NCBI GenBank assembly: GCA_902786245.1
Contig: CADABS010000010.1
Coordinates: 1-49,663, forward strand
Length of the DNA: 49,663 nt
From: an uncultured Erysipelotrichaceae bacterium
GTDB lineage: Bacteria > Bacillota_I > Bacilli_A > Erysipelotrichales > Erysipelotrichaceae
Reading direction: 5' to 3'
Shown here: positions 9,478 through 34,323 of the stretch, piece after piece
How positions within the stretch are numbered: the first letter of the stretch is position 1
Layout: each line of letters starts with the position of its first letter
The notes under the pieces: model-generated
Databases searched by the model: none
Told to the model about the DNA's origin: nothing
What the model saw: the letters and a program-made list of their open reading frames with translations, nothing else
Made by a program: the position numbers and the translations under genes

Positions 9478-12400
9478 TTATTCCTGTTCCTGCGGCTGAT
9501 CCTCTTCTTCCTGTTTTTCATTGCGCATGCCAACGAAGGCAATAACGAATTCAATGATAGCAAGAATGATCATCAGGATTGTCCAGCGGTCGGTATAGAC
9601 CATCGGACTGCGCATGTCTTCGGTGACCAGGAAGATAATGACTGCGACAAATGCGGTTATGACAGATGCCAACGGCAGAATGACTCTGTGCTTCCTGTCT
9701 TCTTCCTCTTCATCCTGGTCTTCCTGTTCCTCGATCTGCGTTCTTTCTTCGCTTTCTTCTTCCTCTTCGGTCTCCTTCTTTCTGCCGATCAGCCATGCAA
9801 AGATGCACAGGATAACGGCAGCGATGATATCAAGGACAACCGTAACAAGATTCACAAGTGCCCAGTACGAAGCTCTTGCCAGAGGAATCTCTGTATCTTC
9901 GATTTCCGTCAGGGTCACTTCACCGGTTTCTTCATCCACATGGACTTCTGCGGCGGTTTCTTTGGAAGGATCGAGCGGTCTGACTTCCGTACCGGGCTGA
10001 ACGGCCGGTACTGCATCTTCAGGAGCAGGTACTGTTTCCTGATCGCCAGGTACAGGTTCACCCGGTTCTTCCGGTACTGTTTCCTGATCGCCAGGTACAG
10101 GTTCACCCGGTTCTTCCGGTACTGTTTCCTGGTCGCCAGGAGCAGGTTCATCCGGTTCTGCCGGCTGTACGGTAAGCGGCCTGTAGATAATATCGATTGT
10201 CAGGTCGTGCGCCGGCATACCCTTTTCATCGGAACGTACAGAATCATAATCACTCAGCATGCCGGTGATTTCAGGTGCCCGTACAGGTCCGAATGCTTCG
10301 CCTGCAGCGTAGCGTCCGGTATACGGCGGTGCCAGTTCATTGCCGTCCTCATCGACGAAGCGTACGGTCAGCAGATATGTATCCGTGATCGTCAGTCTGC
10401 CGTTTTCGACAATGACCGCGAACTGGTCTGTTACATCTGCACCGGTGAGATCGCTTACCATGGCATCACCGCTGATTTCCGTCGTGTAGATACCCGGATC
10501 AATGCCGGCCGCAAATGCGTTCAGGCCGCTGACGCCGTATGACAGTTCATCGATGACAAAGTCTTCTTTTTCAAATCCTTCGACGCTGTGTTCTTCGCCG
10601 TCAAAGAGTACCTGATCGCTGTTTGCCTGCATCTCAATACGGTAGCGGACATTGCGGCTGTAGACATTCAGTGTGCCTGCTGCTGTCTGGATGATATAGT
10701 TCGCCGCATCTGTATCGGGATTCAGTCTATATGTAAATGTATTTGCGGATGTACCCGGCAGAATGCGTACAGCACCGGTATGATATACCGCGCCTTCACC
10801 GTCTGCCCAGCCGTCGCCGCTGACTGTGATTTCCGCTGCCTGCAGCGGTGTGCCGCTGTATTCAGCCTCCGCAGATGCGCTGGTCAGGATCACGGTGCGC
10901 GGTCTGACTGTCAGGGTTCCGTCTGTGATATGGACAGCGAATTCATCGCTGACATCATTTCCTTCGCTGTCGATGACCGATGCGATACCGCTGAATGTTA
11001 CCGGATAGACACCGGCATTTCTGCCGCTTCCGGATGCGCTGAGACCTCTGATGGTATAGGTGTTTCCGTCAACCGTGAATCTGCTGTTGATCAGACCGCT
11101 GAGCGTATGCGTGCTGCCGTCATAGAGATACTCGCCGCTTCTGGCTGTTACTGTAATTTCGTATTTTACCGTACGCGGAACCACATTGATTTCTCCGAAT
11201 ACGGTTGTGATGTCGTAGTTGTTTTCGTCTGTTCCCTCTTTGAGTGTATAGGTGAATGCGTTGGGGCTGATGCCGCTCAGGCTTCTGCCGCCGGAGAATG
11301 CATAGTCTGCACCTTCATTCTCCGCCCATCCGTCACCGCTGACTTCCACTGTTTCATTGACTGCCTCACGGCCGTTGTATACCGTGCGCACCGATCCGGA
11401 TGTCAGGATGACACTCCGTCTGCGGATATCCATGCGTCCGCTTTCCGTACGGATCAGGAACTGGGCTGTCACATCGTTGCCCTGGCTGTCATATACAGCC
11501 GGTGTTCCGGTGACATTCACCGCATATGTTCCTGCGTCTTTTGCGGAAGCAGATGCCTGCAGACCTCTCAGCGTATAATCTACGCCGTCCGCTTTGATAT
11601 GCAGTACGCCTTCGCTGTCGGCCGGACCGTATACGGTCGAAACGCCTTCTGCGGTATGGGTGCTGCCGTCATATACCCAGCTGCCATTGGCTGCCTTAAC
11701 GGCAATTTCATAGCGGGCCGTATCAGGCCGGCTGTATACTGTCAGGCTGCCGAATTCACTGGCGATATTGTAGTCCTCTGCCCGGGTGCCTTCATTCAGC
11801 GTATATGTGAAGACATTCTCGGAAATGCCCGGCAGGGTCCGTGAACCGCTGACGGAACAGGTGACACCGTCGCCTCTGACGAATCCGTCGCCGCCGATGA
11901 CGATTTCACTGTCGTAGACCGGCATGCCGTTATAGAACGCAGCCGCATCGCGGGACCGCAGCGTGACATTTCTCTTTTCCACTGTCATCGTTCCCGGTAC
12001 CGTCACGATCATGAATTCAGACGTGACATCAATTCCATTGGAATCCCGGACAACCGGTGTTCCGGTGATCAGAACCGGATAGCTGCCGGCATGCACTGCC
12101 GAGGCAAACGCGCTCATGCCGCTGACGGTGTATGTCTCGGAACCGATGCCGAAGCGGGTTGACTTCAGCTGGTTGAGCGTATGTACCGTTCCGTCATAGG
12201 TAAAGGTACCGCCGATAGATTCAAGGCTGATGATATATTTTGCGTCGCGGCTGTGTACCTGCAGTACACCGTCGCTTTCCGTGATGTCGTAGTTGGAAGG
12301 ATCCGTACCTTCATTGAATGTATAGGTGAACGGGTTGGCGCTGATGCCCGGCGCTGTCTGGGTGCCGGTCACCTCGTAGCTGATTCCTTCTTCTGCCGCG

Positions 12401-15400
12401 AATCCGTCGCCGCCGATGATCACTTCCGGCGCTGCCAGCGGACTTCCGTCATACTGCTTTTCCGCGGATGCGGAAACCAGTGAAACAGAACGTCTGAGAA
12501 TCTGCAGCACACCCGGTTCCAGATGAATGACAAATTCCTCTGTCACATCATTGCCTTCTTCATCCAGGATGACAGGCGTTCCGGTGATCGCTGCCGTATA
12601 GGTACCGGCATTGACTGCTTCTGCGGATGCTGTGACATTTGCAATCGTATAGGTATGGCCATTGATGACTGCCGTATCTTCGCACAGACCGCTGACGCTG
12701 TGGGCTGTTCCGTCATAGACTGCTGTGCCGCCGTTGGAGCGGATTGCAATTTCATACTTCGACGTACGTCCGTGTACGGAAAGTACACCATTGCGGACGC
12801 GGAAGATATAGTCGGAAGGATCGGTTCCTTCATTGAGCGTATATGTAAATGTGTTGTCGCTGCTGCCGGTGCGGGTCTGCGTTCCGGTTACGGTGAAGGA
12901 TGCGCCTTCGTTTTCCGCGAATCCGTCGCCGCCGACCGTTACCGTATCCATCGTCAGCGGATCGCCGTCATATTCTTTGTCTGCCGATCCGGACATCAGC
13001 GTGACATCTCTGGCTTTGACTTTCAGGATGCCGGTGACCGTGTTGACGGTAAACTGCTCTGTCACGTCATTGCCGTTTTCATCCTTCACAGCAGGAATGC
13101 CGGTGATCGTGTTGAAATAGGTTCCGGCATGAACTGCAGATGCAGCTGCGGATACGCCTTCAACCGTATAGGTATGGCCTCCGGCTGTGAATTCCGTTGT
13201 TTCAAATCCGGAAACGGAATGTTCACTGCCGTCGCAGAGTACTTCATCCCCATTGGATTTCAGAGTGATCGCATAAGCTTCGGAACGCTTTGAAACATCC
13301 AGTGTTCCATAGACCACAGTGACATCATAATCTGCCGCCGAAGCTGCTCCGGTAAATCTGTAATCGAAGATGTTCTCGCTGGAGCCCGGCAGGATTCTTT
13401 CGCCGCTGACCGTATAGACAGCGCCTTCGCCTTCCGCAAATCCGTCGCCTCCGGCCGTTACTTCCGGTGCCCGCAGCGGATTGCCGTCATATTCTGCCGA
13501 TGCCGAAGCACTGGTCAGGATCAGTTTTCTCTTCGCAATGCGCAGACTGCCGTTTTCACAATGCACCGCAAACTGCGCAGTGACATCGTTTCCTTCACTG
13601 TCTCTGACGGCAGGTGTACCGGTGATGGCGACCGGATAGACACCGGCAGATCTGCCGCTGCCCTGTGCGTTTACGCCTTCAACGGTATATGTGTTTCCAT
13701 CCACCGTGAATTCCGTTGTTTCAAAGCCGGATACCGTATGGACGGTTCCGTCATAGAGAGCACTGCCGCCGGAAGCACGGAGCGTAATTTCATACTTCGC
13801 GCTTCTGTCAATGATTTCCAGACTGCCGTATTCCGTGCGGATATCATAGTTTTCCGCATTTGTATTGGCATACAGCTGATAGGTAAATGTATTCGTGCCT
13901 GTGCCGGCTGCTGTCCGGGTGCCGCTGACGGTATAGACAGCGCCTTCATTTTCAGCCCATCCGTCGCCTCCCACTGTTACAGATGTGTTCCGCAGCGGGA
14001 TGCCGTCATATTCTTTCCGGGCTGAACCCGATACCAGAAGCACGGTGCGTGGCAGTACTGTCAGACTGCCGCTTTCATAATGAATGACAAACTGGGAAGT
14101 GACATCATTGCCCTGATCATCCCTGACCACCGGTGTGCCGGTGATCTTTGCCGCATAGGTGCCGGCACCGGTTCCCTTCGCTTCGGAAACGATGCCCTCG
14201 ACCGTATAGCGGCTGCCGTTGACAGTGAATTCCTCCGTTTCAAATCCGGATACTGTCTTTTCGCTGCCGTCATACATACTGGTCTCCCTGATGCCGCGCA
14301 TTGTCAGTTCGTACTGCTCATCGCGGCTGCTGACACTGAGCGTGCCGAAGACCGTACGGATATTGTAGTTGCCGGCCTTTGTGCCTTCATTCAGTACATA
14401 GCTGAACGCATTGTCGGCAGTTCCCGGGACGGTCTGGCTGCCGCTGACCGTATAGACAGCGCCTTCGCCTTCTGCCCATCCGTCGCCGCTGACCGCAATG
14501 CCGTCATCCGTCAGTGCCGTTCCGTCATACTGTCTGAACGCGGTTGCGGATGTCAGTACGACCGTCCGCGGTTCAACAATCATCCGGCCGCTGCGGATAT
14601 GCACACGGAACTGTTCCGTCACATCATTGCCCTGCGCGTCTCTGACAACCGGTGTACCCTCAACGAATACATCATAGTTTCCGGCATCGCGGGCTTTTCC
14701 TGCCGCCTGCAGTCCTTCGATATGATATGTATTTCCTTCGATCTCGAATGTATCTTCTTCGATTCCGTCCACTGCATGTTCGCTGCCGTCATACAGGAAT
14801 GTGCCGCTGTTTGCGCTGACGGTGATCTCATACAGCGATGCCCGCGGCGCTACCTGCAGTATTCCTGCATTTGCGGTGACTGCGTAGTCAGACGCCAGCG
14901 TATTGTTTCTGAATGTATAGGCAAACGCATTCTGACTGCTGCCGGGGATGCGCTGTACGCCGCTGAATGTATAGTCGGCGCCTTCGTTTTCTGCCCATCC
15001 GTCGCCGCTGACAATGATTTCACTGTTCCGCAGATCCGTTCCGTCATATTCCTTCATGGCAGAGCCGGATGTCAGTACCAGCTGTCTCTGTCCGACCGAC
15101 AGAACACCGTTTTCACAGCGGACGCTGAACTGATCGGTAACATCGTTTCCTTCGCTGTCGCGGATGACAGGCGTGCCTTCAATGATATTTTCATAGTTTC
15201 CGGCATGGACTGCGGATACAGAAGCCTGGATACCTTCCACTGTATACATCTGGGTGCCGGCTCTGAACTGTACTGTCTCAAAGCCGCTGACAGATTTCTT
15301 CGTACCGTCATACAGATATGTTCCGCTGCTGGAACGGACCGTTACCGGATACAGATTCTGGCGGCCGGTGACACTGAGCGTGCCGAACACAGTGCTGATT

Positions 15401-18400
15401 TCATAATCCGCCGGATCGGTATTGCCGTTCAGTGTATAGCTGAAGCTGTTGGGGCTGCTGCCGGCAATGGTCTGGCTGCCGCTGACTGTATAGACAGCGC
15501 CTTCGCCTTCCGCAAAGCCATCGCCGCTGACGGTGACAGAATCATTTTTCAATGCTGTTCCGTCATATTCCTTTGACGCCGATGCACTGGTCAGTACAGC
15601 CTTGCGGCGGCTGACCGTCAGTCTGCCGTTTTCCGTATCGACCATAAACTGCTCTGTGACATCGTTGCCGTTTTCGTCTTCCACCTTCGGGGTTCCTGTA
15701 ATGATATTGTCATAGGTTCCCGCATGCACAGCGGAAACAGAAGCTTCCAGGCCCGTTACTCTGTAGCGGCTGCCGTTGACAGTGAATTCGGTCGTTTCAA
15801 ATCCGGATACTGTCTTTTCACTGCCGTCGTACAGGAATGAACCGCTGTTGGCGCTGACCTGCAGATGCACTGCCTCGGCACGGGAGTCAACCTGCAGGAT
15901 GCCCGGAACCGTCGTGATCTGATAATTGCCTGCTTCGGTATTGCTGTTGAGTGTATACGTAAATGCATTGGCAGAAGAACCAGGGATGGTCTGCGAGCCG
16001 CTGACCGTATAGACAGCGCCTTCGCCTTCCGCAAAGCCATCGCCGCCGACAGTTACAGAATCATCTTTCAGTGCCGTTCCGTCATATTCTCTGGAGGCTG
16101 ATGCGGATGTCAGGATGACCTTTCTCTTTTCGATCACCATTGTTCCGCTTTCTGTCCGCAGACTGAACTGCAGCGTAACGTCATTGCCGTTTTCATCAAT
16201 GACCCGCGGCTTGCCGGTGATGGCATTGACATAGGTGCCCGCACCGCGTCCCTGTACCGATGCTTCCGCATCTCTGACAGAGAACTGTCTGCCGTTGACG
16301 GTATAGGTATCCCGGCGCAGACCGGAAACGCTGTGTTCGCTGCCGTCATAGACAAATGTTCCTCCGGCTGCCTGCAGGGTCAGCTGCAGCGGCTCTGCCC
16401 GGTCTGTCACCGTCAGAGTACCTGCATCGGTACGGATATCATAGTTTTCCGCCTTTGTATTTTCATGAAGTGCATAGGTAAATGTATTGGATACGGTACC
16501 CGGTATTGTACGGGTTCCTTCCACTCTGTAATCAGCGCCCTGACCGGCAGCGAATCCGTCGCCGCTGACCGTGACCGTTTCATCCCGCAGCGGCAGGCCG
16601 TCGTATTCTTTCGCGGCGGTCGCAGATGTCAGGATGACCGTGCGGCGGTTGACCGTCAGGCTGCCCGGTTCGATTTCCACAGCGAACTGATCTGTCACAT
16701 CGGCACCGCTGCTGTCGGTTACCGTCGGGGTTCCTTCGATTGCCGTATCATAGCTGCCCGCATCCGTTCCGCTGACAGAAGCCGCAACGCCGCTGACTTT
16801 GTACTGGGCACCGTTGACGGTGAATGTATCCGTTTCAAAGCCGCTGACCGACTTTTCTGTGCCGTCATACATGAATTCGCCGCTGCGTGCCTGCATGTGC
16901 AGAGGATAGGCCTCTGTTCTGCTGCTGATGCGCAGAGTGCCGGGCTGAACTTCGATATTGTAGTCGGCGGCAGAAGTGTTTTCATTGAGCGTATAGGTAA
17001 AGCTGTTCGGTGCGGAGCCGGGAAGCGTAATGGAACCGCTCACCGCAAAGGACGCACCTTCTCCTTCCGCAAAGCCTTCCGCTGCCACTTCGTCATTCTG
17101 CAGCGGGAGTCCGTCGTATTCCTTCTCATCGGATGCCGATGTCAGGGTGACATTGCGGGGAGCGATCTTCAGCTGGCCGCTGATACAGCTGACAGCAAAT
17201 TCGGCAGTGACGTCATTGCCGTTTTCATCCAGAACCTGCGGTGTGCCGGAAATGACATTGTCATAGGTTCCCGCATGTACTGCCGAGACAGATGCGCTGA
17301 CACCGGCAACCGTATAGTTCTTTCCGTTGACCGTGAATTCAAGCGTATCAAAACCCGACACCGTCTGTTCGCTGCCATCGTATACCGTCTCGCTGCTCTT
17401 TGCCCGCAGGGTAATGCCAAAGGCTGCCTGGCGGCCGGTAACCGTCAGTCTGCCGGTATGCACTGTTACTGCGTAATTATCTTTTTCGGTATTTTCGTTG
17501 AATGTATAGGTGAACACATTGTCTCCGCTGCCGGTGACCGTCTGGGTGCCGGTAACGGTGTAGACCGCTCCTTCACCCGGCGCAAATCCGTCTCCGCCGG
17601 CTGTAACGTCAGCGGAAACCAGCGGTGTGCCGTCATATTCCTTCACTGCGGAAGAAGACGTCAGAACAAGCGAACGTCTGCGGACCGTCAGGGTTCCGCT
17701 GCGCAGCGAGATATCAAAGGCATCGGTCACATCGTTGCCTGCAGAATCGCGGATCACCGGCGTACCTGTGATATCCGCACTGTAGGTTCCGGCATTGCGG
17801 CCGGTCGCAGAAGCACTGATGCCTTCCACCGTATAGCGGTTGTTTCCGATCGTGATTTCCATCGGTTCAATGCCGGATACGGTATGTTCACTGCCGTCAT
17901 ACATATATTCGCCGGACGCTGCCTGCAGCACGACGGGCCATCCCTTTTCACGGCGGCCCACCGTTAACATGCCGGTCTGTCTGGTGATGTCATAGTCGTT
18001 GGCATAGGTACCCGGATGCAGGGTATAGCTGAATGTATTCGGACTCGATCCGACAACCGTCTGGCTGCCTGTCACAACGTAATCCGCACCTTCATTCGCT
18101 GCGAAACCATCGCCGCTGATGCGGATATGATCCTCGGTCAGCGGTGTTCCGTCGTATTCGCGGGAAACCGTGGACGAAGTCATGACCACGCTGCGGCGGC
18201 GGATCGTCAGAGTGCCGTTTTCTCTGGCAACGCTGAACTGTTCCGTCACATCATTGCCTTCGCTGTCGAATACGGATGCTTCGCCGGTGATTCTGGCTGT
18301 ATATACACCGGCCCGGATCTGTTCTTCATTGACCTCGAGACCTTTGATGTAATAGACATGTCCGTCTGCTCCGGCCGTCAGTCCTTTGAGCGTATGAACG

Positions 18401-21400
18401 CCATGCGGCTGTCCGTCATAGAGAACATCGGTGCTGACAGCACTGACCACGGCCGGATACAGAGCGTCATGGGAACGGTTCATGACCGTCAGACTGCCGT
18501 ATTCTGCCGTAATCAGATAGTTATCCGGATCCGTACCCGGATTCAGTGTGTATTCAAATGTATTGCGGACCGTGCCCGGCAGGGTTCTTTCCGCGGTCAG
18601 CCGTACCGATACGCCTTCGTTCTGTACGAATGAGCCGTTTGTTACCGATACGCCGCTGTCCGGATAATTGCCGGTATGCAGAGGACTGCCGTCATAGACT
18701 TTGGACGCATTCATCGATGTAAGCGTCACCCGGCGCGGTTCAATGACCATTGTACCGGGTACTGTATGTACACTGAACTGATCGGATACGTCATTGCCTT
18801 CTTCATCCAGAACGGCAGGTGTACCCTGGACCGTACTGGTATATGTACCGGCATCTGCTGCACTTGCGGATGCCTGCAGTCCATGCACGGTAAAGGTCTT
18901 CGAACTGATCGTGAATGTATCCTGGATCAGTCCGGATACCCGCTGTACTTTGCCGTTATAGACATAATTTCCTCCGGCAGCCTGTACCGTGATTTCATAC
19001 AGCGCACTGCGCGATGTAACGGTCAGTGTACCTTCGAAAGCGGAAATGCTGTAGTTGTCTTTATCTGTATTTTCATTCAGCGACCAGGCAAACGTATTGG
19101 CGGAGCTGCCGGTAATGGTGCGGCTTCCGCTCACCGTATACACGGCGCCTTCGTCTTTGGCCCAGCCGTCTCCGCTGACGGTAACGGTGCTGTCGCTCAG
19201 CGGCAGTCCGTCATATTCCTTTTCCGCCGACGCGGATGTCAGAATGACAGAGCGCTTCGTGATCTTCAGTTCGCCGCTGTACGTATTGATTCTGAACTGC
19301 GATGTGACATCGTTGCCCTTTGCGTCCGTAACCGTCGGTGTTCCCGTGATTGTATTGGGATATACACCGGCATTGCGTCCGGTCGCCGCAGCGGAAAGAC
19401 CGCTCAGCGTATATGTGTTTCCTTCAATCGTGAAGGAAGATGCGCTGATGCCGGAAACCGTATGCGTCTGTCCGTCATAGAGAATTTCTTTTCCTGCCGA
19501 ACGGACAGTGATTTCATATTTGTTTTCCCGGTCAATGATTTCCAGACGTCCGTATACGCAGCCGATGGCATAGTTCGATGCCCTGGTGTTTTCCTGGAGC
19601 ACATAGGTGAATATGTTATCGCTCGAGCCGATGCCGCTCTGGACACCGGTAACGCTGTAATCCGCACCTTCGCCTTCGGCAAATCCTTCGCCGCCGACCA
19701 GGATATCGCTGTTTCTGGCCTCGCTGCCGTCATACTGCATGCGTACCGATCCGGATGTAAGAATGACCTGGCGGGGACGGATGACAAGTGTTCCCGGCTC
19801 TTTTTCGATCCGGAACTGTCCCGTCACATCGTTGCCTTCGCTGTCGCGGATCACCGCTTCGCCGGTGACTTCATTGATCATCCGGCCAGCATCTGTCATC
19901 TCGGCATGGCTGCTGAGGCCTTCGATCCTGTATGTATATCCGTTGTATGCAAATGTATCGCTGACAATACCGGAAACGGATACCGGACTGCCGGTATAGA
20001 CCGCTTCTGCGGAAGAAGCCTGTACCGTCACCGTGTATTTTTCCGCATCGGAACGGCTCAGCACCTGCAGGGTGCCGAACTGTGTTTCAATATCATAGTT
20101 GCCAGCCAGTGTTCCTTCTGCCGCGATCCATGTGAATGTATTGGGAGATCTGCCCGGCAGCGTCTGGGAACCGGCACTGCGGATAATGACGCCTTCGCCT
20201 TCCGCAAAGCTGCCTTCCGCGACCGATACGCCGCTGTTTTCCCAGGCGGCTGTTGTCAGCGGACCGCCGTCATACATCTTGCCTGCATCGGCAGAGCGCA
20301 GCACGATATGGCGGGCGGCAACCGTCAGGACGCCGTCTTCTCTTTCAACCGCAAACTGGGCACTGACATCGTTTCCTTCCGCATCGGTAACGACCGCTGT
20401 TCCCTGGACCGGGATCCGGTATGTGCCGGCATTGGTCTTCGTCAGCGCAGCGCTCATTCCTGCAACCCGGTACGATGCACCGTTGATCGTGAAGACAGTC
20501 TGTTCCAGACCTTCTGCTTTCTGCGGAGCGCCGCTGTAGACCAGCGTATGATCCGCCGCTTTGACAGTGATGGCATATTTTGTTTCACGGTCGGTGACAT
20601 TCAGCGTTCCGAAAACGGTCTCCACGGTGTAATCAGCTGCGTTTGTATCTTCATGGAATGCATAGGTAAATGTATTCCGGCTGGCACCGGCTGCGGTCTG
20701 CGTGCCTGTCACAGTGAAGTCCATGCCTTCCGAACCGGCAAATCCATCGCCGCTGACATAGATATCTTTGTTCACCAGCGGTTGGCCGTCATATTCCTTT
20801 GTCTGGCTGGCACTGGTCAGAATGATCCGGCGCGGTGTCACAGACAGTGTTCCGGACGCAACTGCTGTTTCATAATTCGGGTTTTCCGCTCTGACCGTAT
20901 AGGTCAGGCTTCCGGCATGCAGAAGCTGCGGTGCTTCTTCTGTCCATGTTTCCCCATCTGCTGTATAGGTGAGTTTTGTGCCGGCCGGCATTTCTGCGCT
21001 GACACCGCCGCTGAGCGGCTGGCCGCTGTACATTCTCTGCACGGTAATGGCATTCAGGCTGAGCACTGCAGGGACAATGGTCAGTTCACCGTCCGTCATG
21101 GTTACATGATAGTTGCCCTGTTCTTCCTCTGCCTGTACACGGACCGGATAGGTTCCGGCATCTTCGCCTTCATCGCGGACCAGTTCATAGGCAACGGTAT
21201 CGCTGCCGAAAAGACCCTGTACTTCTGCTTCAAACACAGGATCGGCGCTGCCGTATGTTTTCTGTGCGTTCTTTGCCCTGACAGTCACTTCTGCCGGCAG
21301 TACTTTCAGCACAGCATCCGCATAGACAGTTTCATAATTATCGTTGAGAGCCCGTACACGGACAGTATCTTCTCCTGCATCTCTGCGGGATGGAGCAGTT

Positions 21401-24400
21401 CTGCTCCAGGTTGAACCGCCGTCGGTACTGTATTCAATGACCGTTCCGTCTTTGACCGTTGCGGCTGCCCGTACACGGTGCAGCGTTCCGTCATATGTGC
21501 CTTCCCAGCCATCTGCCTGCAGCGCCATTTCACCGCTCTTTGCGATTGTGAAAACCGCTTCTTTTACGGTGACATCGTAGTTTTCCTGCACTGCCTCGGC
21601 ATTGACGTGAATCGTATATTCCCCGGCATCTTCGCCCGGATCGCGCTGCAGTTCATATTCCAGCGAATCGCCTGAAAGCAGGCCGCTGAAAGACACCCGC
21701 AGCTGCGGATCTTCATCACCATAGTTCTTGGCCATGTTCATCGCTGCGATTTCCGCCGGTATCCGGGTGATCTCCAGAACACCCGCTTCTGCGGCAGTGA
21801 TGATATAGCGTCTGGAAAGGTCTGTCTTTCCGACGGTTCCTTCTGCAAATTCAACCGGATAGGTTCCGGCATTCTTTTCGCTGCGGGATGCGCTGATATT
21901 TTCAAATTCCGCATCCGGAACGGAACATGTAAATCCGCTCACGGTCTGCTGTGCGCCATTGTAGGGCACATGCAGTTCATCAGCCTGCACAGTGACATTC
22001 TTATAGTAGTCAAAACGGATTTCCATACCCGGGCTGCTGATTTCCATTTCCTTGCGGGATACGGAAGGATCCACCGGTGTATAGCCTTCGATTTCAAGCA
22101 GATCGCCGCTGCCGGTTTCAAAGTACCGTACCGAAGCGGTCCGTGAAGGAGCGACCGGAATATCCGTGCCGTTAAGGTAGTATCCGACGGTATAGCTGAC
22201 AAGACGCTTGGTGTAGTATACCCGGATCACATTGTCTGCTTCATTGGCGCTCACCGTCAGAGAAGCAGGTGTTTTTTCACTGAAGGTAAAGCCGGTTCTG
22301 GGCTTGTCCGTATAGGATGTAATAACTGTTCCGATTTCCACCGGTCCGAGTACATCTGTCATTGCCGCATCGGGGATGCCGTCATAGATATATTCAACCC
22401 GGTAGCGGGCATTGACCGGCACATACCGGCCGTAGAATGTCGTATTGGCATTCAGTTCTCCCGTGAAGGAAGCAGCTGCGGTACATGCGGCGTCTTCATA
22501 CCATCCGTCAAAGGCATAGGTAATGCCGTTGACCGTCTTTGACGACGGAACAGCAGAAGAAGACGGCTTTTTGATCGAAGAACGGGCTGTACCGGAAAGG
22601 AATCTCTGTGAATAATCTGTCAGAGACTCATAGGCGGATCCGCCTGCGTTCATGACCGCAAAATTGGCGCTGACAAAGTCTTTTTCATTCAGGACACAGG
22701 TATAGTCGAGATGGAAAGACAGAGCGCTGGCTGTGGGATTGTAATTGTTATAACCGGAATTGGCACCGCTGGCGACGATCGTACGGAACGGCTGCACGGT
22801 GTAGTATCCCTGCATTCCGCTTTCCGCCGATCCCTCCGGTGCGTATTTATATGTCTGGCCGGCATAGGTAATATCCGGATACAGTGCTTTGACTGTTTCC
22901 CCTGTCACATACTCGGATACAGATTTTCCTTTGCCCAGAGAGGACGGACTCTTCGTGCCGTAGATCTTCGTCACGCCGAGACCGAACCACCGCGTATTCG
23001 CATCGCTTGTCTGGATATTGGCATCTGCACCGGGAATCAGGGCATAGTGATACAGATTGTATCCGGTGAATGTCACGGTGACCTGTGCCTGATCGCTGTA
23101 TACATTTCCATAGAGCTCATCTTCTTCCGGCGATACAGAAGCCGTAATGACTGCCGTACCCTGGCCGCGGGCGGTAACGATACCGTTTTCAACGGTTACC
23201 ACAGAGGTATCAGAAGATGTCCAGATAATCGTATTTTCAGCGCTGATGGCTGTCAGTGACGCTCTCAGCTGCGCTGTCGCACCGATTTCTCCGAGTGATA
23301 CAGAGCCCGGTGTGACAGATATTGCCGGTTCCTGTACCGGATCAGTAATGATGATTGTATATGTTCCGACGGTTTCGTACGATGAAAACCAGCCGCTCCT
23401 GTTGAGAACCTGCAGCGTGATTTCTGCTGTGCCGGCTCTGCGGGCAGTAACGGTTCCGCTGGTCGAAACCGAAGCGGTATTCGAATTCGAACTGGACCAT
23501 TTGCATGTCTTACCCGTATATGCCGCAGGAACAGGGATCGTAAACGACTCCCCGGTCGTCATTGTATAGGTGCTGCTTTCCGGCGTGGAAGCAGTCGAAG
23601 CAACCGCATACTGCGAAAAGTGATCCGTCGTAAAACCGACCGCATCGCCGTTCTGGCTCTGCCCCATTTTCTGCGCTTCTCCGCTCTCCTCAATATGGTA
23701 TACGGATGTTTCTTCGCCGGCATTTACGCCGCTGAGTCCGATTGACACAAAGACCGGGAAAGAAGGTTCGATTTCCGCTCCGGTTGCGTCATGGATCGTA
23801 ATATCATAAACGACCAGGTCTACCAGTTCTCTGCCCGGTTCGATCATGTTTTCCACTGTGCTCTGCGCATGCGCCGATGATACGACAACAGCGTTCACAT
23901 ATGTCCCCTCCGGGAATGCGCCGCCTTCTGCCTGTACATATACATAGGCGCCGTCGCTGGCAGTTGTATACAGTTCCGTTACCGTCAGTGCCGGCTTCTC
24001 CTCTGCCGGTTCAGTCGGTGTTTCTGCAGGTGTTTCCGGTTCAGTCGGTGTTTCTGCAGGAGTCTCCGGTTCGGAAGGTGTTACTGCAGGTATTTCCGGT
24101 TCCGCCGGTGTTTCTGTGGGAGTTTCCGGTTCGGACGGTGTCTCTGCGGGAGTCTCCGGTTCCGTCGGTGTTACTGCAGGGGTCTCCGGTTCCGCCGGTG
24201 TTACTGCGGGTGTTTCCGGTTCAGTCGGTGTCTCTGCAGGGGTCTCCGGTTCAGTCGGTGTCTCTTCCGGCGTCTCCGGTTCAGTCGGTGTCTCCGCAGG
24301 CGTTTCCGGTTCAGTCGGTGTCTCTTCCGGTGTATCCGTCTCGGAAGGTGTTTCTTCCGGCGTTTCCGTCTCAGACGGCGTCTCTTCCGGTTCATCGACC

Positions 24401-24657
24401 GTTATTTCTTCCGGTGTTTCTTCAACCGGCTGTTCACTGGTTTCAGTGACATCTTCAGCCGGTATTTCCAGTTCTACGGTTTCCTGATCAGCTGCCTGTT
24501 CTTCCGGCATTTCCGCATATACTTCCGTATCATCGGGGAGCTCTGTAGCTCTCAGCATACGGTCTGTGCCGCCGAAAAGGCTGTAAGTGATGACCAGCAC
24601 TGCGGCCAGCATTCCCAGCAGGATCCTCTTCATAAGTCTGCGAACACTTTTCTTCAT
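9478..24657 (-). CDS. Giant 5059-residue repeat surface protein (MBG-like repeats, membrane-anchored)
   Basis: Parts in order: basic N-terminus and hydrophobic signal/anchor (about 10-30); a Pro/Thr/Glu stalk of 10-residue repeats (about 84-220); a beta-rich domain (222-356); two Big_2 Ig-like domains (about 360-535); a unique domain (540-700); an InlB-type B-repeat (about 705-740) and MucBP-like stretches to 860; several MBG/YDG-like modules (865-1275); twenty two-part units averaging 174 residues (about 1275-4760); a MucBP-like domain (VRFVDEDGNEL) to about 4830; a Pro/Glu repeat; the phrase EIPLARASYWALVNL; and three membrane helices split by acidic tails. Such proteins act as adhesins or wall stalks; that role is inferred. 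There is no LPXTG motif, so the C-terminal helices probably anchor it. The start overlaps the previous stop (ATGA). The frame is open throughout, with no sign of decay. Confidence 0.93.
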   Translation of the reverse strand: MKKSVRRLMKRILLGMLAAVLVITYSLFGGTDRMLRATELPDDTEVYAEMPEEQAADQETVELEIPAEDVTETSEQPVEETPEEITVDEPEETPSETETPEETPSETDTPEETPTEPETPAETPTEPETPEETPTEPETPAETPTEPETPAVTPAEPETPAVTPTEPETPAETPSEPETPTETPAEPEIPAVTPSEPETPAETPTEPETPAETPTEPAEEKPALTVTELYTTASDGAYVYVQAEGGAFPEGTYVNAVVVSSAHAQSTVENMIEPGRELVDLVVYDITIHDATGAEIEPSFPVFVSIGLSGVNAGEETSVYHIEESGEAQKMGQSQNGDAVGFTTDHFSQYAVASTASTPESSTYTMTTGESFTIPVPAAYTGKTCKWSSSNSNTASVSTSGTVTARRAGTAEITLQVLNRSGWFSSYETVGTYTIIITDPVQEPAISVTPGSVSLGEIGATAQLRASLTAISAENTIIWTSSDTSVVTVENGIVTARGQGTAVITASVSPEEDELYGNVYSDQAQVTVTFTGYNLYHYALIPGADANIQTSDANTRWFGLGVTKIYGTKSPSSLGKGKSVSEYVTGETVKALYPDITYAGQTYKYAPEGSAESGMQGYYTVQPFRTIVASGANSGYNNYNPTASALSFHLDYTCVLNEKDFVSANFAVMNAGGSAYESLTDYSQRFLSGTARSSIKKPSSSAVPSSKTVNGITYAFDGWYEDAACTAAASFTGELNANTTFYGRYVPVNARYRVEYIYDGIPDAAMTDVLGPVEIGTVITSYTDKPRTGFTFSEKTPASLTVSANEADNVIRVYYTKRLVSYTVGYYLNGTDIPVAPSRTASVRYFETGSGDLLEIEGYTPVDPSVSRKEMEISSPGMEIRFDYYKNVTVQADELHVPYNGAQQTVSGFTCSVPDAEFENISASRSEKNAGTYPVEFAEGTVGKTDLSRRYIITAAEAGVLEITRIPAEIAAMNMAKNYGDEDPQLRVSFSGLLSGDSLEYELQRDPGEDAGEYTIHVNAEAVQENYDVTVKEAVFTIAKSGEMALQADGWEGTYDGTLHRVRAAATVKDGTVIEYSTDGGSTWSRTAPSRRDAGEDTVRVRALNDNYETVYADAVLKVLPAEVTVRAKNAQKTYGSADPVFEAEVQGLFGSDTVAYELVRDEGEDAGTYPVRVQAEEEQGNYHVTMTDGELTIVPAVLSLNAITVQRMYSGQPLSGGVSAEMPAGTKLTYTADGETWTEEAPQLLHAGSLTYTVRAENPNYETAVASGTLSVTPRRIILTSASQTKEYDGQPLVNKDIYVSGDGFAGSEGMDFTVTGTQTAAGASRNTFTYAFHEDTNAADYTVETVFGTLNVTDRETKYAITVKAADHTLVYSGAPQKAEGLEQTVFTINGASYRVAGMSAALTKTNAGTYRIPVQGTAVVTDAEGNDVSAQFAVEREDGVLTVAARHIVLRSADAGKMYDGGPLTTAAWENSGVSVAEGSFAEGEGVIIRSAGSQTLPGRSPNTFTWIAAEGTLAGNYDIETQFGTLQVLSRSDAEKYTVTVQASSAEAVYTGSPVSVSGIVSDTFAYNGYTYRIEGLSSHAEMTDAGRMINEVTGEAVIRDSEGNDVTGQFRIEKEPGTLVIRPRQVILTSGSVRMQYDGSEARNSDILVGGEGFAEGEGADYSVTGVQSGIGSSDNIFTYVLQENTRASNYAIGCVYGRLEIIDRENKYEITVRSAGKEILYDGQTHTVSGISASSFTIEGNTYTLSGLSAAATGRNAGVYPNTITGTPTVTDAKGNDVTSQFRINTYSGELKITKRSVILTSASAEKEYDGLPLSDSTVTVSGDGWAKDEGAVYTVSGSRTITGSSANTFAWSLNENTDKDNYSISAFEGTLTVTSRSALYEITVQAAGGNYVYNGKVQRVSGLIQDTFTISSKTFTVHGLQASASAADAGTYTSTVQGTPAVLDEEGNDVSDQFSVHTVPGTMVIEPRRVTLTSMNASKVYDGSPLHTGNYPDSGVSVTNGSFVQNEGVSVRLTAERTLPGTVRNTFEYTLNPGTDPDNYLITAEYGSLTVMNRSHDALYPAVVSAVSTDVLYDGQPHGVHTLKGLTAGADGHVYYIKGLEVNEEQIRAGVYTARITGEASVFDSEGNDVTEQFSVARENGTLTIRRRSVVMTSSTVSREYDGTPLTEDHIRISGDGFAANEGADYVVTGSQTVVGSSPNTFSYTLHPGTYANDYDITRQTGMLTVGRREKGWPVVLQAASGEYMYDGSEHTVSGIEPMEITIGNNRYTVEGISASATGRNAGTYSADITGTPVIRDSAGNDVTDAFDISLRSGTLTVRRRSLVLTSSSAVKEYDGTPLVSADVTAGGDGFAPGEGAVYTVTGTQTVTGSGDNVFTYTFNENTEKDNYAVTVHTGRLTVTGRQAAFGITLRAKSSETVYDGSEQTVSGFDTLEFTVNGKNYTVAGVSASVSAVHAGTYDNVISGTPQVLDENGNDVTAEFAVSCISGQLKIAPRNVTLTSASDEKEYDGLPLQNDEVAAEGFAEGEGASFAVSGSITLPGSAPNSFTYTLNENTSAADYNIEVQPGTLRISSRTEAYPLHMQARSGEFMYDGTEKSVSGFETDTFTVNGAQYKVSGVAASVSGTDAGSYDTAIEGTPTVTDSSGADVTDQFAVEIEPGSLTVNRRTVILTSATAAKEYDGLPLRDETVTVSGDGFAAGQGADYRVEGTRTIPGTVSNTFTYALHENTKAENYDIRTDAGTLTVTDRAEPLQLTLQAAGGTFVYDGSEHSVSGLRRDTYTVNGRQFSVRDAEASVQGRGAGTYVNAITGKPRVIDENGNDVTLQFSLRTESGTMVIEKRKVILTSASASREYDGTALKDDSVTVGGDGFAEGEGAVYTVSGSQTIPGSSANAFTYTLNSNTEAGNYQITTVPGILQVDSRAEAVHLQVSANSGSFLYDGSEKTVSGFETTEFTVNGSRYRVTGLEASVSAVHAGTYDNIITGTPKVEDENGNDVTEQFMVDTENGRLTVSRRKAVLTSASASKEYDGTALKNDSVTVSGDGFAEGEGAVYTVSGSQTIAGSSPNSFSYTLNGNTDPADYEISTVFGTLSVTGRQNLYPVTVRSSSGTYLYDGTKKSVSGFETVQFRAGTQMYTVEGIQASVSAVHAGNYENIIEGTPVIRDSEGNDVTDQFSVRCENGVLSVGQRQLVLTSGSAMKEYDGTDLRNSEIIVSGDGWAENEGADYTFSGVQRIPGSSQNAFAYTFRNNTLASDYAVTANAGILQVAPRASLYEITVSANSGTFLYDGSEHAVDGIEEDTFEIEGNTYHIEGLQAAGKARDAGNYDVFVEGTPVVRDAQGNDVTEQFRVHIRSGRMIVEPRTVVLTSATAFRQYDGTALTDDGIAVSGDGWAEGEGAVYTVSGSQTVPGTADNAFSYVLNEGTKAGNYNIRTVFGTLSVSSRDEQYELTMRGIRETSMYDGSEKTVSGFETEEFTVNGSRYTVEGIVSEAKGTGAGTYAAKITGTPVVRDDQGNDVTSQFVIHYESGSLTVLPRTVLLVSGSARKEYDGIPLRNTSVTVGGDGWAENEGAVYTVSGTRTAAGTGTNTFTYQLYANTNAENYDIRTEYGSLEIIDRSAKYEITLRASGGSALYDGTVHTVSGFETTEFTVDGNTYTVEGVNAQGSGRSAGVYPVAITGTPAVRDSEGNDVTAQFAVHCENGSLRIAKRKLILTSASASAEYDGNPLRAPEVTAGGDGFAEGEGAVYTVSGERILPGSSENIFDYRFTGAASAADYDVTVVYGTLDVSKRSEAYAITLKSNGDEVLCDGSEHSVSGFETTEFTAGGHTYTVEGVSAAASAVHAGTYFNTITGIPAVKDENGNDVTEQFTVNTVTGILKVKARDVTLMSGSADKEYDGDPLTMDTVTVGGDGFAENEGASFTVTGTQTRTGSSDNTFTYTLNEGTDPSDYIFRVRNGVLSVHGRTSKYEIAIRSNGGTAVYDGTAHSVSGLCEDTAVINGHTYTIANVTASAEAVNAGTYTAAITGTPVILDEEGNDVTEEFVIHLEPGVLQILRRSVSLVSASAEKQYDGSPLAAPEVIIGGDGFAAEEGISYEVTGTQTAPGISANPFTYTFNEGTDPSNYDITESDGVLQVHSRDAKYIISLESIGGTFTYDGTVHTLNQLKSTRFGIGSETYTVSGMSAFASAVHAGSYPVLITGTPVVRDSNGIDVTSEFMIVTVPGTMTVEKRNVTLRSRDAAAFYNGMPVYDSEIVIGGDGFVRGDGVTCSVSGSRTLPGISENVFTYTLNEGTRAEDYNIASEFGSLTVYSRPDTARYEIAVKAANGSWVYDGSTHTAEGVSTVYGPADSEGVLHIKADGVDYTLRGLQASASAKDAGTYAVNVTGTPAVYDSQGNDVTAQFLIRTESGRMDIRRRSVILTSGSVRTVYNGREAVNETVEVSGDGWAENEGADYAFSGGRSLSGISPNAFTYTLKEGTDENNYDITTVFGEINVVPRTVKYEITVTARSGEYLYDGSTHTLSGLINSRFTVDGNTYTIRGLSASGSGRNAGVYPVTFSGIASVIDSEGNDVSDEFAVHITDGTLTVRPRTVILTSASAEAEYSGTPLQAAEITVSGDGWADGEGAVYHTGAVRILPGTSANTFTYRLNPDTDAANYIIQTAAGTLNVYSRNVRYRIEMQANSDQVLFDGEEHSVEGFEKEDFVIDELSYGVSGLNAFAAGIDPGIYTTEISGDAMVSDLTGADVTDQFAVIVENGRLTITDTYLLTVRFVDEDGNELAPPYTGRYAAGEAFGPVRAPEITGMLSDYDSVRSDEKGMPAHDLTIDIIYRPLTVQPAEPDEPAPGDQETVPEEPGEPVPGDQETVPEEPGEPVPGDQETVPAPEDAVPAVQPGTEVRPLDPSKETAAEVHVDEETGEVTLTEIEDTEIPLARASYWALVNLVTVVLDIIAAVILCIFAWLIGRKKETEEEEESEERTQIEEQEDQDEEEEDRKHRVILPLASVITAFVAVIIFLVTEDMRSPMVYTDRWTILMIILAIIEFVIAFVGMRNEKQEEEDQPQEQE
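10028..10162 (-). repeat. Three 45-bp direct repeats in the giant gene
   Basis: Three adjacent 45-bp units (10028-10072, 10073-10117, 10118-10162) encode the repeat EPGEPVPGDQETVPE. The first two are nearly identical and the third differs at several bases. Such short, near-exact repeats can change number by slippage. They form a proline-rich spacer before the membrane anchor. Confidence 0.85.
10378..20834 (-). repeat. Twenty tandem A+B repeat units of about 520 bp
   Basis: Each unit averages about 174 residues. Part A follows the pattern LTSASxxKEYDGxPL, a central (S/G)GDGFAEGEGAxYTVSGSQT, then FTYTLNxxTxxxNY. Part B follows YEITVxAxSGxxxYDGSxHTVSGF, then YTVEG, AGTY and ITGTPxVxDxxGNDVTxQF. 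The YDG-like core of part A occurs near 20788, 20267, 19730, 19210, 18690, 18151, 17632, 17114, 16600, 16080, 15562, 15042, 14525, 14010, 13490, 12965, 12448, 11930, 11371 and 10846. Protein identity between units is moderate and the DNA has diverged, so the array is old rather than a recent expansion. The pattern resembles MBG/YDG immunoglobulin-like modules. Confidence 0.9.
24008..24395 (-). repeat. 30-bp repeats encoding a Pro/Thr/Glu stalk
   Basis: About thirteen imperfect 30-bp units encode TEPETPAETP and close variants. The segment follows the signal region and would form an extended, acidic, wall-spanning or spacer stalk. Some neighbouring units are almost identical in DNA, so copy number may vary between strains. 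Confidence 0.85.
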
Positions 24658-24815
24658 ATCTGTTCCCTGCTTTCTAAGTACTCCGCAAAATCTCTGTATG
24701 TCTGTTCAAGTTCTTTTTCTTCTTTGCGATACTGACGCTGCCGGATCAGAAACAGAACCGCCAGCGCTGCCATGAAGCACACCGGAATGATATCCAGCAG
24801 ATCAGGCATTCTCAT
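24654..24815 (-). CDS. Small single-pass membrane protein (53 residues)
   Basis: The product starts MRMPDLLDIIP, has one membrane helix at about residues 9-24 and a charged, helical C-terminal tail. An AAGGA site lies 7 nt before the ATG at 24815. The stop overlaps the start of the giant gene as ATGA, and the start lies inside the end of the gene before it, so translation is probably coupled on both sides. No family is recognised. A role in assembly or membrane handling of the giant protein is only a guess from position. Confidence 0.7.
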   Translation of the reverse strand: MRMPDLLDIIPVCFMAALAVLFLIRQRQYRKEEKELEQTYRDFAEYLESREQI

Positions 24816-24957
24816 AGGCTGTTCCTTCTTTCTCTTCAAATCTTTTCCGCAGCGTTTTTTTCTGTCTGCTTTTTCTGAATAAACGGTATATCTCAAAAAC
24901 CGCGAAAACGGCAAAAGATGCCGCCATCAGCGCAATGGCCGCAATTTCTCTGTTCAT
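24802..24957 (-). CDS. Small single-pass membrane protein (51 residues)
   Basis: This reading frame, short enough to be missed by usual length cut-offs, encodes MNREIAAIALMAASFAVFAV followed by a strongly basic segment (RLFRKSRQKKTLRKRF) and a short acidic end. One membrane helix (about 5-21) is expected with the basic tail inside the cell. Its ATG overlaps the stop of the gene upstream (ATGA), a GGGGAAAAG ribosome site lies just before it, and its end overlaps the next gene by 14 nt. This tight packing supports it as a real gene. Function unknown. Confidence 0.65.
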   Translation of the reverse strand: MNREIAAIALMAASFAVFAVFEIYRLFRKSRQKKTLRKRFEEKEGTAYENA

Positions 24958-25343: not shown

Positions 25344-26567
25344 TTATCCCTTTTTCAGGGTCATGGCCAGGTGCAGTGTATTGCCGATATGATCGGGTAT
25401 ATAAACATCAAGATTCTCTTTCGGGCGCCCGAAAACGATTTCCCCGCTTTCTTCTTCCCAGCGCAGCGGCAGGATCTTTTCTCCCGCCGGATTCAGGGCA
25501 TAGACACCTCTGAAACGCACGCCTATTCCTTCATCCTCCACATGCAGAACAACTTCCTGCGCAGTGACTTTGCTGTCGAGAAGACGCGGTGCGCTGCAGT
25601 CGGCTTCGGTCACTGTCTGCACGGTGCTGACAGACTGCCGGTTGATCAGTTCCACCTCGATCTTCATTTCGCCATTGCGTACCGGCTCAACGGTAAATGT
25701 CCTTGCCGAGGCTTCATATACCGGCAGAGCGGATTTTCCCATAAACGCCCTGACGCTCCGCAGCGGCAGAAGCGACCGCACATCGATCGTATATTCAGGG
25801 AGTCCCCGGGTTCCGCCGGAAGCAGCAGATACGGAATACTCCGGCAGAAAAAACAACAGCGGCAGAGCGGCAAACAGAATCATCAGTACGGTCAGTACCG
25901 ATCTCTGCATGGAAAAGCGTTCTTTGCGGTATACGGTATAGGAAGCCAGGGCTTCCAGAGGCACCTTGTTCTCCTTGGCGCCGCAGGCACGGAACACATC
26001 TTCAAGGATCACCGCCGCATCCGTTGCCTTCATGCGGGCATCCGTGCGGCTGATCTTCTCAATGTTTCCTGCCGGCAGACCGCATCCGCCTTCCCGGTGC
26101 AGATGGCTGATGCCGTGTTTCAGACACCGCTTCACCATGGAAACCGGGATATTCAGATGGCCGGATATCTCCGAATCCGGATAGTCCTGGGCATAATGCA
26201 TGAAGAGCACCTGCGACTGCAGCACCGGCAGATTCATGATCTGCATGACTGTACAGGTACTGTTCTGTACCTGTACCGGGGTGCCGCTGTCCGGCACGCA
26301 CAGATCTGCGTCCATGCATTTCTGCACGCATATACGGTATGCCCATGGCATGAAAAGGTCCTTGTTCTGCAGATACGGCAGATGTTCATGGATTTCGGTC
26401 CATATCTCCCGCATCATCCGCAGCGACATTTCCCTGTCCTGTGCCATGGCGAAAACATATGTATACATGCGGGATGATGCCGCAGCGTACAGTTCTGCAA
26501 AAAAATCGCTGTTTCCGCAGGCCCGCACTGCAAGATCATTCAGATATGCCTGATCCAGTTTTTCCAT
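25344..26567 (-). CDS. ECF-sigma-like protein fused to a membrane helix and extracytoplasmic domain
   Basis: The first 160 of 407 residues look like an ECF sigma factor: region 2 at about 12-80 (FFAELYAAASSRMYTYVFAM, then FMPWAYRICVQKCMD) and region 4 at about 101-155 (LPVLQSQVLFMHYAQDYPDSEISGHLNIP, the helix-turn-helix, split here as LPVLQSQVLF and DSEISGHLNIP). A linker leads to one membrane helix (about 223-241) and an outer beta-rich domain ending in YIPDHIGNTLHLAMTLKKG. Normally sigma factor and membrane anti-sigma are separate proteins; here sensor and DNA-binding parts are in one chain. Activation by cleavage or by direct membrane tethering are both possible. The ATG at 26567 was chosen over a GTG at 26591; its ribosome site (GGGTAAAT) is weak. 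Target promoters are unknown. Confidence 0.8.
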   Translation of the reverse strand: MEKLDQAYLNDLAVRACGNSDFFAELYAAASSRMYTYVFAMAQDREMSLRMMREIWTEIHEHLPYLQNKDLFMPWAYRICVQKCMDADLCVPDSGTPVQVQNSTCTVMQIMNLPVLQSQVLFMHYAQDYPDSEISGHLNIPVSMVKRCLKHGISHLHREGGCGLPAGNIEKISRTDARMKATDAAVILEDVFRACGAKENKVPLEALASYTVYRKERFSMQRSVLTVLMILFAALPLLFFLPEYSVSAASGGTRGLPEYTIDVRSLLPLRSVRAFMGKSALPVYEASARTFTVEPVRNGEMKIEVELINRQSVSTVQTVTEADCSAPRLLDSKVTAQEVVLHVEDEGIGVRFRGVYALNPAGEKILPLRWEEESGEIVFGRPKENLDVYIPDHIGNTLHLAMTLKKG

Positions 26568-26591
26568 ATTTACCCGATTTCTATATATCAC

Positions 26592-26641: not shown

Positions 26642-27343
26642 TTATTCTTTGATTATCATTCCGGAATGTGCCCGCCGGTCGGACAGAGCGACCAGTTCCG
26701 TCAGGGTATGCGCTTCTTCACCTTCCTGAAAAGCTCTTCCCGCCTGCCAGCGCAGAATCATATCCGGATGGCTCTGATTCCACTGGTCCGTGTTTTCTTC
26801 CATCATCGCAATCAGTCTGTTCAGCTTCTGCTCGGTGCATTTTTCAATGATCACCAGGAATTTGTTTCCGCCGTTGCGGCCGATAAATCCGTTTCCGTCA
26901 AAGGAGCGCTGCAGAATATCGGAAAAAGCCCTGATCGCGGTATCGCCGCCGGTATGTCCGTGTCTGGCATTGATTTCGCCCAGGCACGTCAGATCGATCG
27001 TCAGACAGCCCATCTCCCGGTTCAAAGGACGGTTTAAGTGGCGGCTGAGATAGACATCCGCACTGTAGCGGTTGGCAATCCCGGTCAGAGGATCGGACCA
27101 GACAGCGTTGTCCAGTTCAATATTCTCTCTGCGCAGTGCTGTATAGGAATTGAAATCATAGAACAGAAATGCCAGAGAGATGCCGGTCAGAATCCACAGC
27201 AGCAGACAGAGAAAACGGACATGGCTGTCTGCCGCAATCATCGCATACAGTTCGCCGTCGCTGAAAATGACCGTCAGCGCCGCTGCGGCAATCAGTATGA
27301 TCAGAACCATCTGTATGGTTTTTACAATGTCAAACCGCTTCAT
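26642..27343 (-). CDS. Membrane protein with degenerate GGDEF domain
   Basis: The 233-residue product has two membrane helices (about 10-28 and 43-62), a short coiled linker and a GGDEF-type domain from about residue 83 (DPLTGIANR). The signature motif reads GGNKF at 158-162 instead of GGDEF, which lacks the acidic residues needed for metal binding and catalysis. So diguanylate cyclase activity is unlikely; the domain more likely binds a nucleotide or a partner protein. The start overlaps the signal peptidase stop by 4 nt (ATGA). It sits with a second decayed GGDEF-like domain (gene at 28369) in the same operon. Confidence 0.85.
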   Translation of the reverse strand: MKRFDIVKTIQMVLIILIAAAALTVIFSDGELYAMIAADSHVRFLCLLLWILTGISLAFLFYDFNSYTALRRENIELDNAVWSDPLTGIANRYSADVYLSRHLNRPLNREMGCLTIDLTCLGEINARHGHTGGDTAIRAFSDILQRSFDGNGFIGRNGGNKFLVIIEKCTEQKLNRLIAMMEENTDQWNQSHPDMILRWQAGRAFQEGEEAHTLTELVALSDRRAHSGMIIKE

Positions 27344-27867
27344 GAGCCTGTCCCCGTTTCAAAATGCATGATGATTTTCCCTTTGATCTGTCTGCGGTTC
27401 ACTTCTCCGAATGTCCGTGAATCCATGGATACCTGCCGGTTGTCACCGAGCACAAAGACATTTCCTTCCCGGACGGTATACGGAAATATGACTGCCGATG
27501 TCTGTTCTTCCGTCACGCCGGAAGCATTTTCATCCGCAATGTCAGCGCCGTTGACCAGAACACTTCCGTCCCTGATGTCAACCGTATCGCCGCCCACGGC
27601 AATCACCCGCTTGACATAGTAGTCCCCGGCCGGCACCCGCATCGATACAACATCGCCCGGCATATATTCCGGAACAATGCGCAGATAGACAACGATGTCG
27701 CCGCTGTGAAAAGACGGCTTCATGGAGTCTCCGCCGATGATTGAGATACCGATGACGAACCGGAAGAGAACGAAAACAAGAACTGTCAGGATGATAAAAT
27801 GCATGGAATCATGAAGCCATTCCAGTTTTGACCCGTTGTATTTTTCCAGAATCCTTTTCTTTGCCAT
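27340..27867 (-). CDS. lepB: Signal peptidase I
   Basis: This 175-residue S26A peptidase cuts signal peptides from exported proteins. It has one N-terminal membrane helix (about 23-44), the nucleophile Ser48 in GGDSMKPS, the general-base Lys86 in YYVKRVIAVGGD, and the box E motif GDNRQVSMDSRTFG. This is the usual Gram-positive single-helix form. Placed inside a pilus/surface-protein operon, it may be dedicated to proteins made by that operon, as seen for signal peptidases beside sortase-pilus loci, but here no sortase is present. The gene follows the 155-aa protein by 24 nt and overlaps the GGDEF-type gene by 4 nt. Confidence 0.95.
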   Translation of the reverse strand: MAKKRILEKYNGSKLEWLHDSMHFIILTVLVFVLFRFVIGISIIGGDSMKPSFHSGDIVVYLRIVPEYMPGDVVSMRVPAGDYYVKRVIAVGGDTVDIRDGSVLVNGADIADENASGVTEEQTSAVIFPYTVREGNVFVLGDNRQVSMDSRTFGEVNRRQIKGKIIMHFETGTGS

Positions 27868-28359: not shown

Positions 28360-28368
28360 AGCTGACTC

Positions 28369-30666: not shown

Positions 30667-30675
30667 ACAGTTACC

Positions 30676-31900: not shown

Positions 31901-31912
31901 GCCGTCTCCTTT

Positions 31913-32227: not shown

Positions 32228-32236
32228 TCTCTCTCC

Positions 32237-33280: not shown

Positions 33281-33289
33281 AAGCGTCTC

Positions 33290-34246: not shown

Positions 34247-34255
34247 ACTGGTTTC

Positions 34256-34264
34256 ATTATAGCA
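34256..34264 (-). promoter_or_regulatory. Extended -10 promoter at the head of the surface/pilus operon
   Basis: TGCTATAAT on the minus strand is a perfect extended -10 element, which can work without a -35 box; none is obvious at the right distance. It ends 9 nt before the ATG at 34246, so the transcript would have a leader of only a few bases. It is the only good promoter I see upstream of the 16-gene run. Confidence 0.6.
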
Positions 34265-34293
34265 TCCGCCGCCCTTGCTTATATATAGAGCTT

Positions 34294-34323
34294 TCAAAAA
34301 AAGAACGGCTTTTACCGTTCTTT
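34294..34323 (-). terminator. Intrinsic terminator after the MFS transporter gene
   Basis: A 9-bp perfect stem (34315-34323 with 34300-34308, loop 34309-34314) is followed by seven T on the minus strand. It ends the MFS gene (stop at 34355) and isolates the surface/pilus operon from upstream transcription. Confidence 0.9.

Follow-up and report, generated by a model that had tools for sequence, protein, structure and literature searches.

Twenty paired MBG/YDG-like repeats as the probable stalk of a giant surface protein in an uncultured Erysipelotrichaceae bacterium

We analyzed a stretch of 49,663 nucleotides (hereinafter, the window; contig CADABS010000010.1 of assembly GCA_902786245.1) from an uncultured Erysipelotrichaceae bacterium, in which the longest open reading frame (ORF), a single frame on the minus strand (9478..24657), encodes a protein of 5059 amino acids (aa) with a long array of two-part repeats (10375..20832). 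Our results indicate that this array is very probably the stalk of a giant cell-surface protein, in which two subfamilies of MBG/YDG domains, denoted here A and B, are locked together as a multiplied pair and carry an N-terminal head outward.

The array comprises 20 A and 20 B parts, cut at the YDG motifs, that alternate without exception within this one ORF. An earlier description made from the sequence alone (hereinafter, the original prediction) had placed twenty strictly alternating units of about 174 residues at 10378-20834 without giving a strand; the alternation and the unit size are borne out, and the boundaries require only the small correction given above. Numbered from the high end (unit 1) to the low end (unit 20), 15 of the 20 units are 173 aa long, and the others are 171, 175, 180, 180 and 185 aa. 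The A part is mostly 84 aa, with copies 48% identical on average, and the B part mostly 89 aa, with 43% identity; mean residue identity among whole units is 46%. The phrase GNDVT, previously reported for nearly every B part, is found in this exact form in 14 of the 20 copies, whereas the relaxed forms GNDV[TS] and G-x-D-V-[TS] are present in 17 and in all 20, respectively. A search of the whole genome's proteins with one unit returned the 20 matches in the giant ORF and one weak match on another contig. At the DNA level, the units have diverged as originally claimed, with a mean pairwise identity of 53% and a maximum of 65%. Identity at codon positions 1, 2 and 3 is 59, 62 and 39%, compared to 31, 25 and 27% expected from composition; the first two positions are thus much more similar than the third, so the protein level is what is conserved.

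None of the 20 window copies of A or of B exceeds the cut-off of the MBG or YDG families. Among these copies, A comes closest with MBG_2 (E 0.0011) and B with MBG (E 0.0042), and E-values of this order remain under the curated cut-offs (an E-value of 0.0036 corresponds to 18.3 bits against the 25 required). With longer pieces, only AgI_II_C2 came out over its cut-off, as a whole-protein sum of short partial stretches. The kinship emerges from broad alignments that combine one domain per locus of the relatives described below with one window copy each (for A, n=60, from the first 60 of 70 loci with L075 dropped; for B, n=58, from all 57 loci). At E<=0.01, MBG_2 matches 40 of the 60 A sequences and YDG 24, and among the 58 B sequences MBG matches 14 and MBG_2 five. 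Comparison of the broad alignments with hhalign gave 98.3% for A with YDG, 97.3% for A with B, 96.0% for A with MBG_2 and 95.1% for B with MBG_2; for B with YDG the value was only 32.7%, which falls short of homology at the profile level. The controls, 40 with shuffled columns per pair, peaked at 21.5% for A with YDG and did not exceed 2.3% elsewhere. For the window copies alone, the corresponding values were 95.9 (A with YDG), 90.2 (A with B), 56.0 (A with MBG_2), 87.1 (B with MBG_2) and 1.7 (B with YDG). On the strength of these comparisons, we place A and B in the MBG/YDG stalk-domain superfamily as two divergent subfamilies, probably of common origin. The resemblance of the YDG core to MBG, suggested in the original prediction, is thus upheld, and its proposal of a distinct repeat family holds for the fixed pairing, which Pfam and NCBIfam do not recognize as such, but not for the domains themselves, which are kin to MBG. 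Literature searches returned no description of the A-B pairing; the sole relevant MBG/YDG paper among the listings was the Periscope study, in which, according to its available text, YDG and MBG_2 were founded as Pfam families (PMC8201768). The case against novelty that the original prediction named, full membership of both parts in existing MBG profiles together with a catalogued alternation, is thus not borne out as far as these searches reach. A parallel built from catalogued domains is found in a 3150-aa ORF of a genome of the same family (G103, contig C2, 113298-118712; loci L118, L125, L139 and others), where YDG and MBG_2 largely alternate.

Structure prediction for an A-B-A-B segment, as had been proposed, yielded a confident all-beta AlphaFold2 model for units 10-11 (pLDDT 94.6, pTM 0.69), in which A and B are each confidently predicted to form a small beta domain. 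The top structural match of the model is 4ng0 (rmsd 3.0 over 81 residues), a domain of Lar_0958, also known as CmbA and described as a mucin-binding adhesin in the available text of PMC5039594; a fragment of 4ng0 scores 48.5 bits with Pfam MBG. The same MBG domain is the best profile match of B in the PDB, albeit not a significant one (E 0.53). Foldseek, which returned GhpA stalk fragments and cadherins at TM scores near 0.2, is of little use for such a chain of beads, and in a library of viral structures, Ig-like phage proteins were matched.

The two joints of the array differ. Between fixed motifs, all 19 B-to-A joints of the window and 228 of the 229 in relatives have a spacing of 20 residues, whereas the A-to-B spacing is 24 residues in 17 of the 20 window joints and 26 in the other three, and 24 in 183 of 278 joints in relatives. 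For the relatives, these counts cover adjacent domains above 20 bits that are at most 25 residues apart and in which both motifs were found, leaving out L048 and L057, which are similar to or overlap other loci. In the model, a single residue separates the strands of B and A, compared to five between A and B, so that the last B strand runs almost straight into the first A strand and the opposite joint is a short variable linker. Because the B-to-A length is fixed and the A-to-B linker varies, the array, as far as spacing and the predicted model indicate, is most likely a polar rod of stiff B-A blocks connected by looser A-B joints. The rod reading is well supported; of the earlier claim of selection for a long rod, the data bear out a conserved unit length and one invariant joint rather than selection for rod length as such.

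The unit order provides evidence on the history of the array. The homologous protein of G031, a genome of the same genus but another species, contains 10 units compared to 20 in the window, and the reciprocal best units of the two arrays (1-1, 2-2, 14-4, 16-6, 18-8, 19-9 and 20-10, window unit given first) are in order in 7 of 7 cases (p 0.0002). For L043, 6 of 7 reciprocal best units are in order (p 0.007); against L023, L022, L024, L030, L034 and L017 no significant unit order was detected, such that order held for two of the eight partners. In the unit tree, in which every second inner fork is open and the bootstrap did not settle, supported sets join window unit 1 with G031 unit 1 (100/96) and window unit 19 with G031 unit 9 and L043 unit 11 (98/92), and window unit 20 groups with the final units from three relatives (97/94). 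The simplest reading is that of an old array with fixed ends that would have grown in the middle.

The repeat is by no means confined to the window. A collection scan with one peptide pattern returned 498 stretches and 153 relatives, from which 73 loci were kept. By title, the relatives are mostly gut Bacillota and Coriobacteriia, among them Kandleria vitulina, Olsenella sp. An270, Enterorhabdus sp. P55, Gordonibacter pamelaeae, Adlercreutzia faecimuris and Lachnospiraceae bacterium XBD2001, together with four bins labelled Bacteroidales or Paludibacteraceae. Among whole genomes, the repeat was detected in 18 of 60 relatives (E<=0.001) and in 12 of 392 genomes of a phylum sample that includes the genome of the window (E<=1e-10). 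Adjacent domains in relatives are of unlike kind in 97% of the cases at 30 bits, 86% at 20 bits and 85% at 12 bits, against a random expectation of 47-48%, and ORFs with at least four domains show no equal neighbours in 55 of 62, 43 of 63 and 40 of 65 cases, respectively. A-A neighbours number 19, 92 and 112 at the same thresholds, which implies that some relatives do contain A-A runs. In four loci (L041, L049, L050 and L082), A recurs at a spacing of 84-89 residues and B is undetected at 30 bits; the second domain there may be of another type. In another family of the order, a 4473-aa ORF (L111, 2914-16332, minus strand) contains many A-like domains consecutively, with few B detected. Iterated A and B profiles were rejected for the relatives: A absorbed B, and just 20 of 71 ORFs seemingly alternated. 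Because the iteration was judged faulty, from aligning mixed domains, the un-iterated profiles were used.

The gene extends beyond the array by 3.8 kb upstream and 0.9 kb downstream. From the N terminus, the protein consists of a signal-peptide-like start with a T-P-E-rich stretch (24004..24657; read by eye from the sequence), a domain at aa 220-360 (23578..24000) that is common to 17 locus ORFs, duplicate loci included, Big_2 domains (23068..23520; 45.3 bits, cut-off 22.8), a candidate head that we denote the X domain (22558..23055), beta-grasp-type repeats (22048..22560; Flg_new-like, under the cut-off), a shorter stalk (20833..21996), the array, a MucBP-like stretch (10168..10374; 22.3 bits, just under the cut-off of 23) and a FILTED domain as C-terminal membrane anchor (9502..9864; NF052597, 105 bits, cut-off 40), all on the minus strand. 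The shorter stalk contains two MBG_2 domains over the cut-off (21079-21288 and 21547-21750), with other beta domains between the two, and an MBG_3-like match under the cut-off. This order is the one expected for a surface protein in which a head, a stalk and an anchor follow one another, and it includes three features of a fibrillar adhesin: a surface anchor (FILTED, over its cut-off as is Big_2), the stalk array and a putative export signal, read by eye. The beta-grasp part matches YwfG, SHIRT and InlB B-repeats. The X domain, which has no Pfam or NCBIfam match and whose start is poorly predicted, shows 55-57% conservation across three relatives and a weaker one in L047; genome searches returned one clear homologue, in G031, the remaining matches lying mainly over the beta-grasp end. 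Among the 57 relative ORFs whose 3' end is complete, a count that takes in L048 and L057, eight end with a FILTED motif, four with a strict LPxTG and 15 with nothing of the kind, and the others carry an LPxTG-like pattern, an xPLA motif or a hydrophobic stretch alone; the simple patterns used are coarse, and variants that can be seen by eye escape them.

Under the stalk interpretation, A and B would have been locked into a pair that was then multiplied as a unit, the protein would be exported and held by its FILTED anchor, and the stalk would carry the head region (Big_2, X domain and beta-grasp repeats) away from the cell, with a reach of about 100-200 nm on the assumption that every domain contributes a few nanometres, as is typical. 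Adhesion within the gut, be it to mucus, fibre or other cells, is the likely use, plausible by analogy because of the kinship with CmbA. Several observations weigh against this interpretation. Neither Pfam nor NCBIfam recognizes an adhesive domain in the N-terminal region, and the fold of the X domain is not readable from its model (pLDDT 72, from five sequences, with the first 31 residues below 50). By the standard of the tool itself, the Z score of 4.7 for the match to 4ng0 is low, and cohesins score equally. Alternation in relatives weakens at lower thresholds. Finally, the distances of A and B parts across units correlate with r of 0.39, whereas the shifted pairing of each B with the following A gives 0.33, nearly as good; because the first value is just above the second, we take the pair as the duplicated unit, with the frame of duplication unsettled.

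Three alternatives have to be considered. The repeat domains themselves might bind, making the protein a multivalent adhesin rather than mainly a spacer. The nearest solved domain indeed comes from a repeat-bearing mucus adhesin, CmbA, and according to the available text of PMC9210967, stalk domains are not clearly delimited from adhesive ones. However, the structural match is weak, and resemblance between relatives is closer in the X and beta-grasp head (55-57%) than in the corresponding units, for which reciprocal best pairs reach 48-57% and all pairs about 45%; we consider this explanation unlikely.

Still less probable is a Periscope protein, in which near-identical repeats vary in number between strains to change reach. 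The unit number differs twofold between the window and G031, albeit between species, and two of the domain families involved come from the Periscope study. Nevertheless, the units of the window are far from highly similar DNA repeats, their end units match by position in two relatives, and none of the 30 arrays measured has a mean DNA identity of at least 80%, with a single one containing any pair of at least 90%. As for a wholly new family without MBG kinship, the window copies all fall under the MBG and YDG cut-offs and sequence searches of the PDB gave nothing significant, but the profile-profile links and the Pfam matches of relatives largely refute this idea. The link between A and YDG does not depend on the A-like sequences over the YDG cut-off in L120, L122 and L127, without which it is still 93.5%, and such a family appears very improbable.

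Upstream of the giant gene, on the same strand, are genes for a sigma-70 region 4 protein (25344..26591), with a transmembrane stretch and a C-terminal ectodomain read by eye, a GGDEF-family protein with the changed signature GGNKF (26642..27343) and an S26 signal peptidase (27340..27867). Judging from gene order and spacing, this trio and the giant gene would form an operon. In a survey of 42 giants with the 5' end in the locus, 32 of which have at least 2.5 kb upstream, the trio was found in identical order in L023, L030, L036 and L049, and rearranged in L071; in L022 and L024, where the upstream sequence spans about 2 kb at most, the sigma-like gene is present. The signature is GGN[KT]F in 6 of 6 homologues of the GGDEF-family protein; catalysis by a protein with such a signature is doubtful. 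Small membrane-type ORFs lie between the giant and sigma-like genes (24660-25334, minus strand), the first with an EIPLA motif ahead of a hydrophobic stretch, as at the C terminus of the giant. Farther upstream, also on the minus strand, are a BTAD activator and a small protein (27892-29595), homologues of which both occur shortly upstream of the A-B giant in L047 (BTAD alone in L060 and L065), and a Type II/IV secretion-like cluster that comprises T2SSE, T2SSF and a transglutaminase-like gene (29614-34297); among the Coriobacteriia, loci L045, L046, L053, L063, L068 and L070 have homologues close to their A-B giants.

A more elaborate model, which we advance tentatively and with some doubt, combines a polar rod module (invariant stiff B-A, tunable A-B), insertion in the middle of the array between fixed end units and production of the protein under a dedicated upstream set, with a putative surface-sensing ectodomain on the sigma-like protein. 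In gut Bacillota and Coriobacteriia, the annotation of long surface proteins stays poor because current profiles miss the stalk units; A and B profiles would annotate the 73 loci and reveal the start of the heads. That joint length is constrained on one side only offers a testable idea of how bacteria build stiff rods from folded beads.

Among known systems, YDG (PF18657) and MBG_2 (PF18676) share with A and B profile-level kinship, length and tandem use in surface proteins, but the window copies fall under their cut-offs and form two subfamilies in fixed alternation. The DUF11/DUF7507 (CLIPPER) stalks resemble the array in that two domain families often alternate within one stalk, as described in the available part of PMC12617251. 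These stalks are read there as isopeptide-bonded, whereas a well conserved lysine column is absent from both A and B: no B column has lysine in at least 8 of the 20 copies, and A has one column with 12 of 20. The MBG domain (PF17883) of CmbA, the best structural match of the A-B model, occurs in repeats of about 290 bp that are identical at the DNA level, in 8 or 11 copies, going by the accessible text of PMC13339910; here, two kinds alternate and all copies have diverged. Periscope proteins, as presented in the text available from PMC8201768, similarly combine a long tandem array of folded domains with an N-terminal head. In contrast to their nearly identical units, those of the window array are diverged, with low identity throughout and ends kept by position in two relatives.

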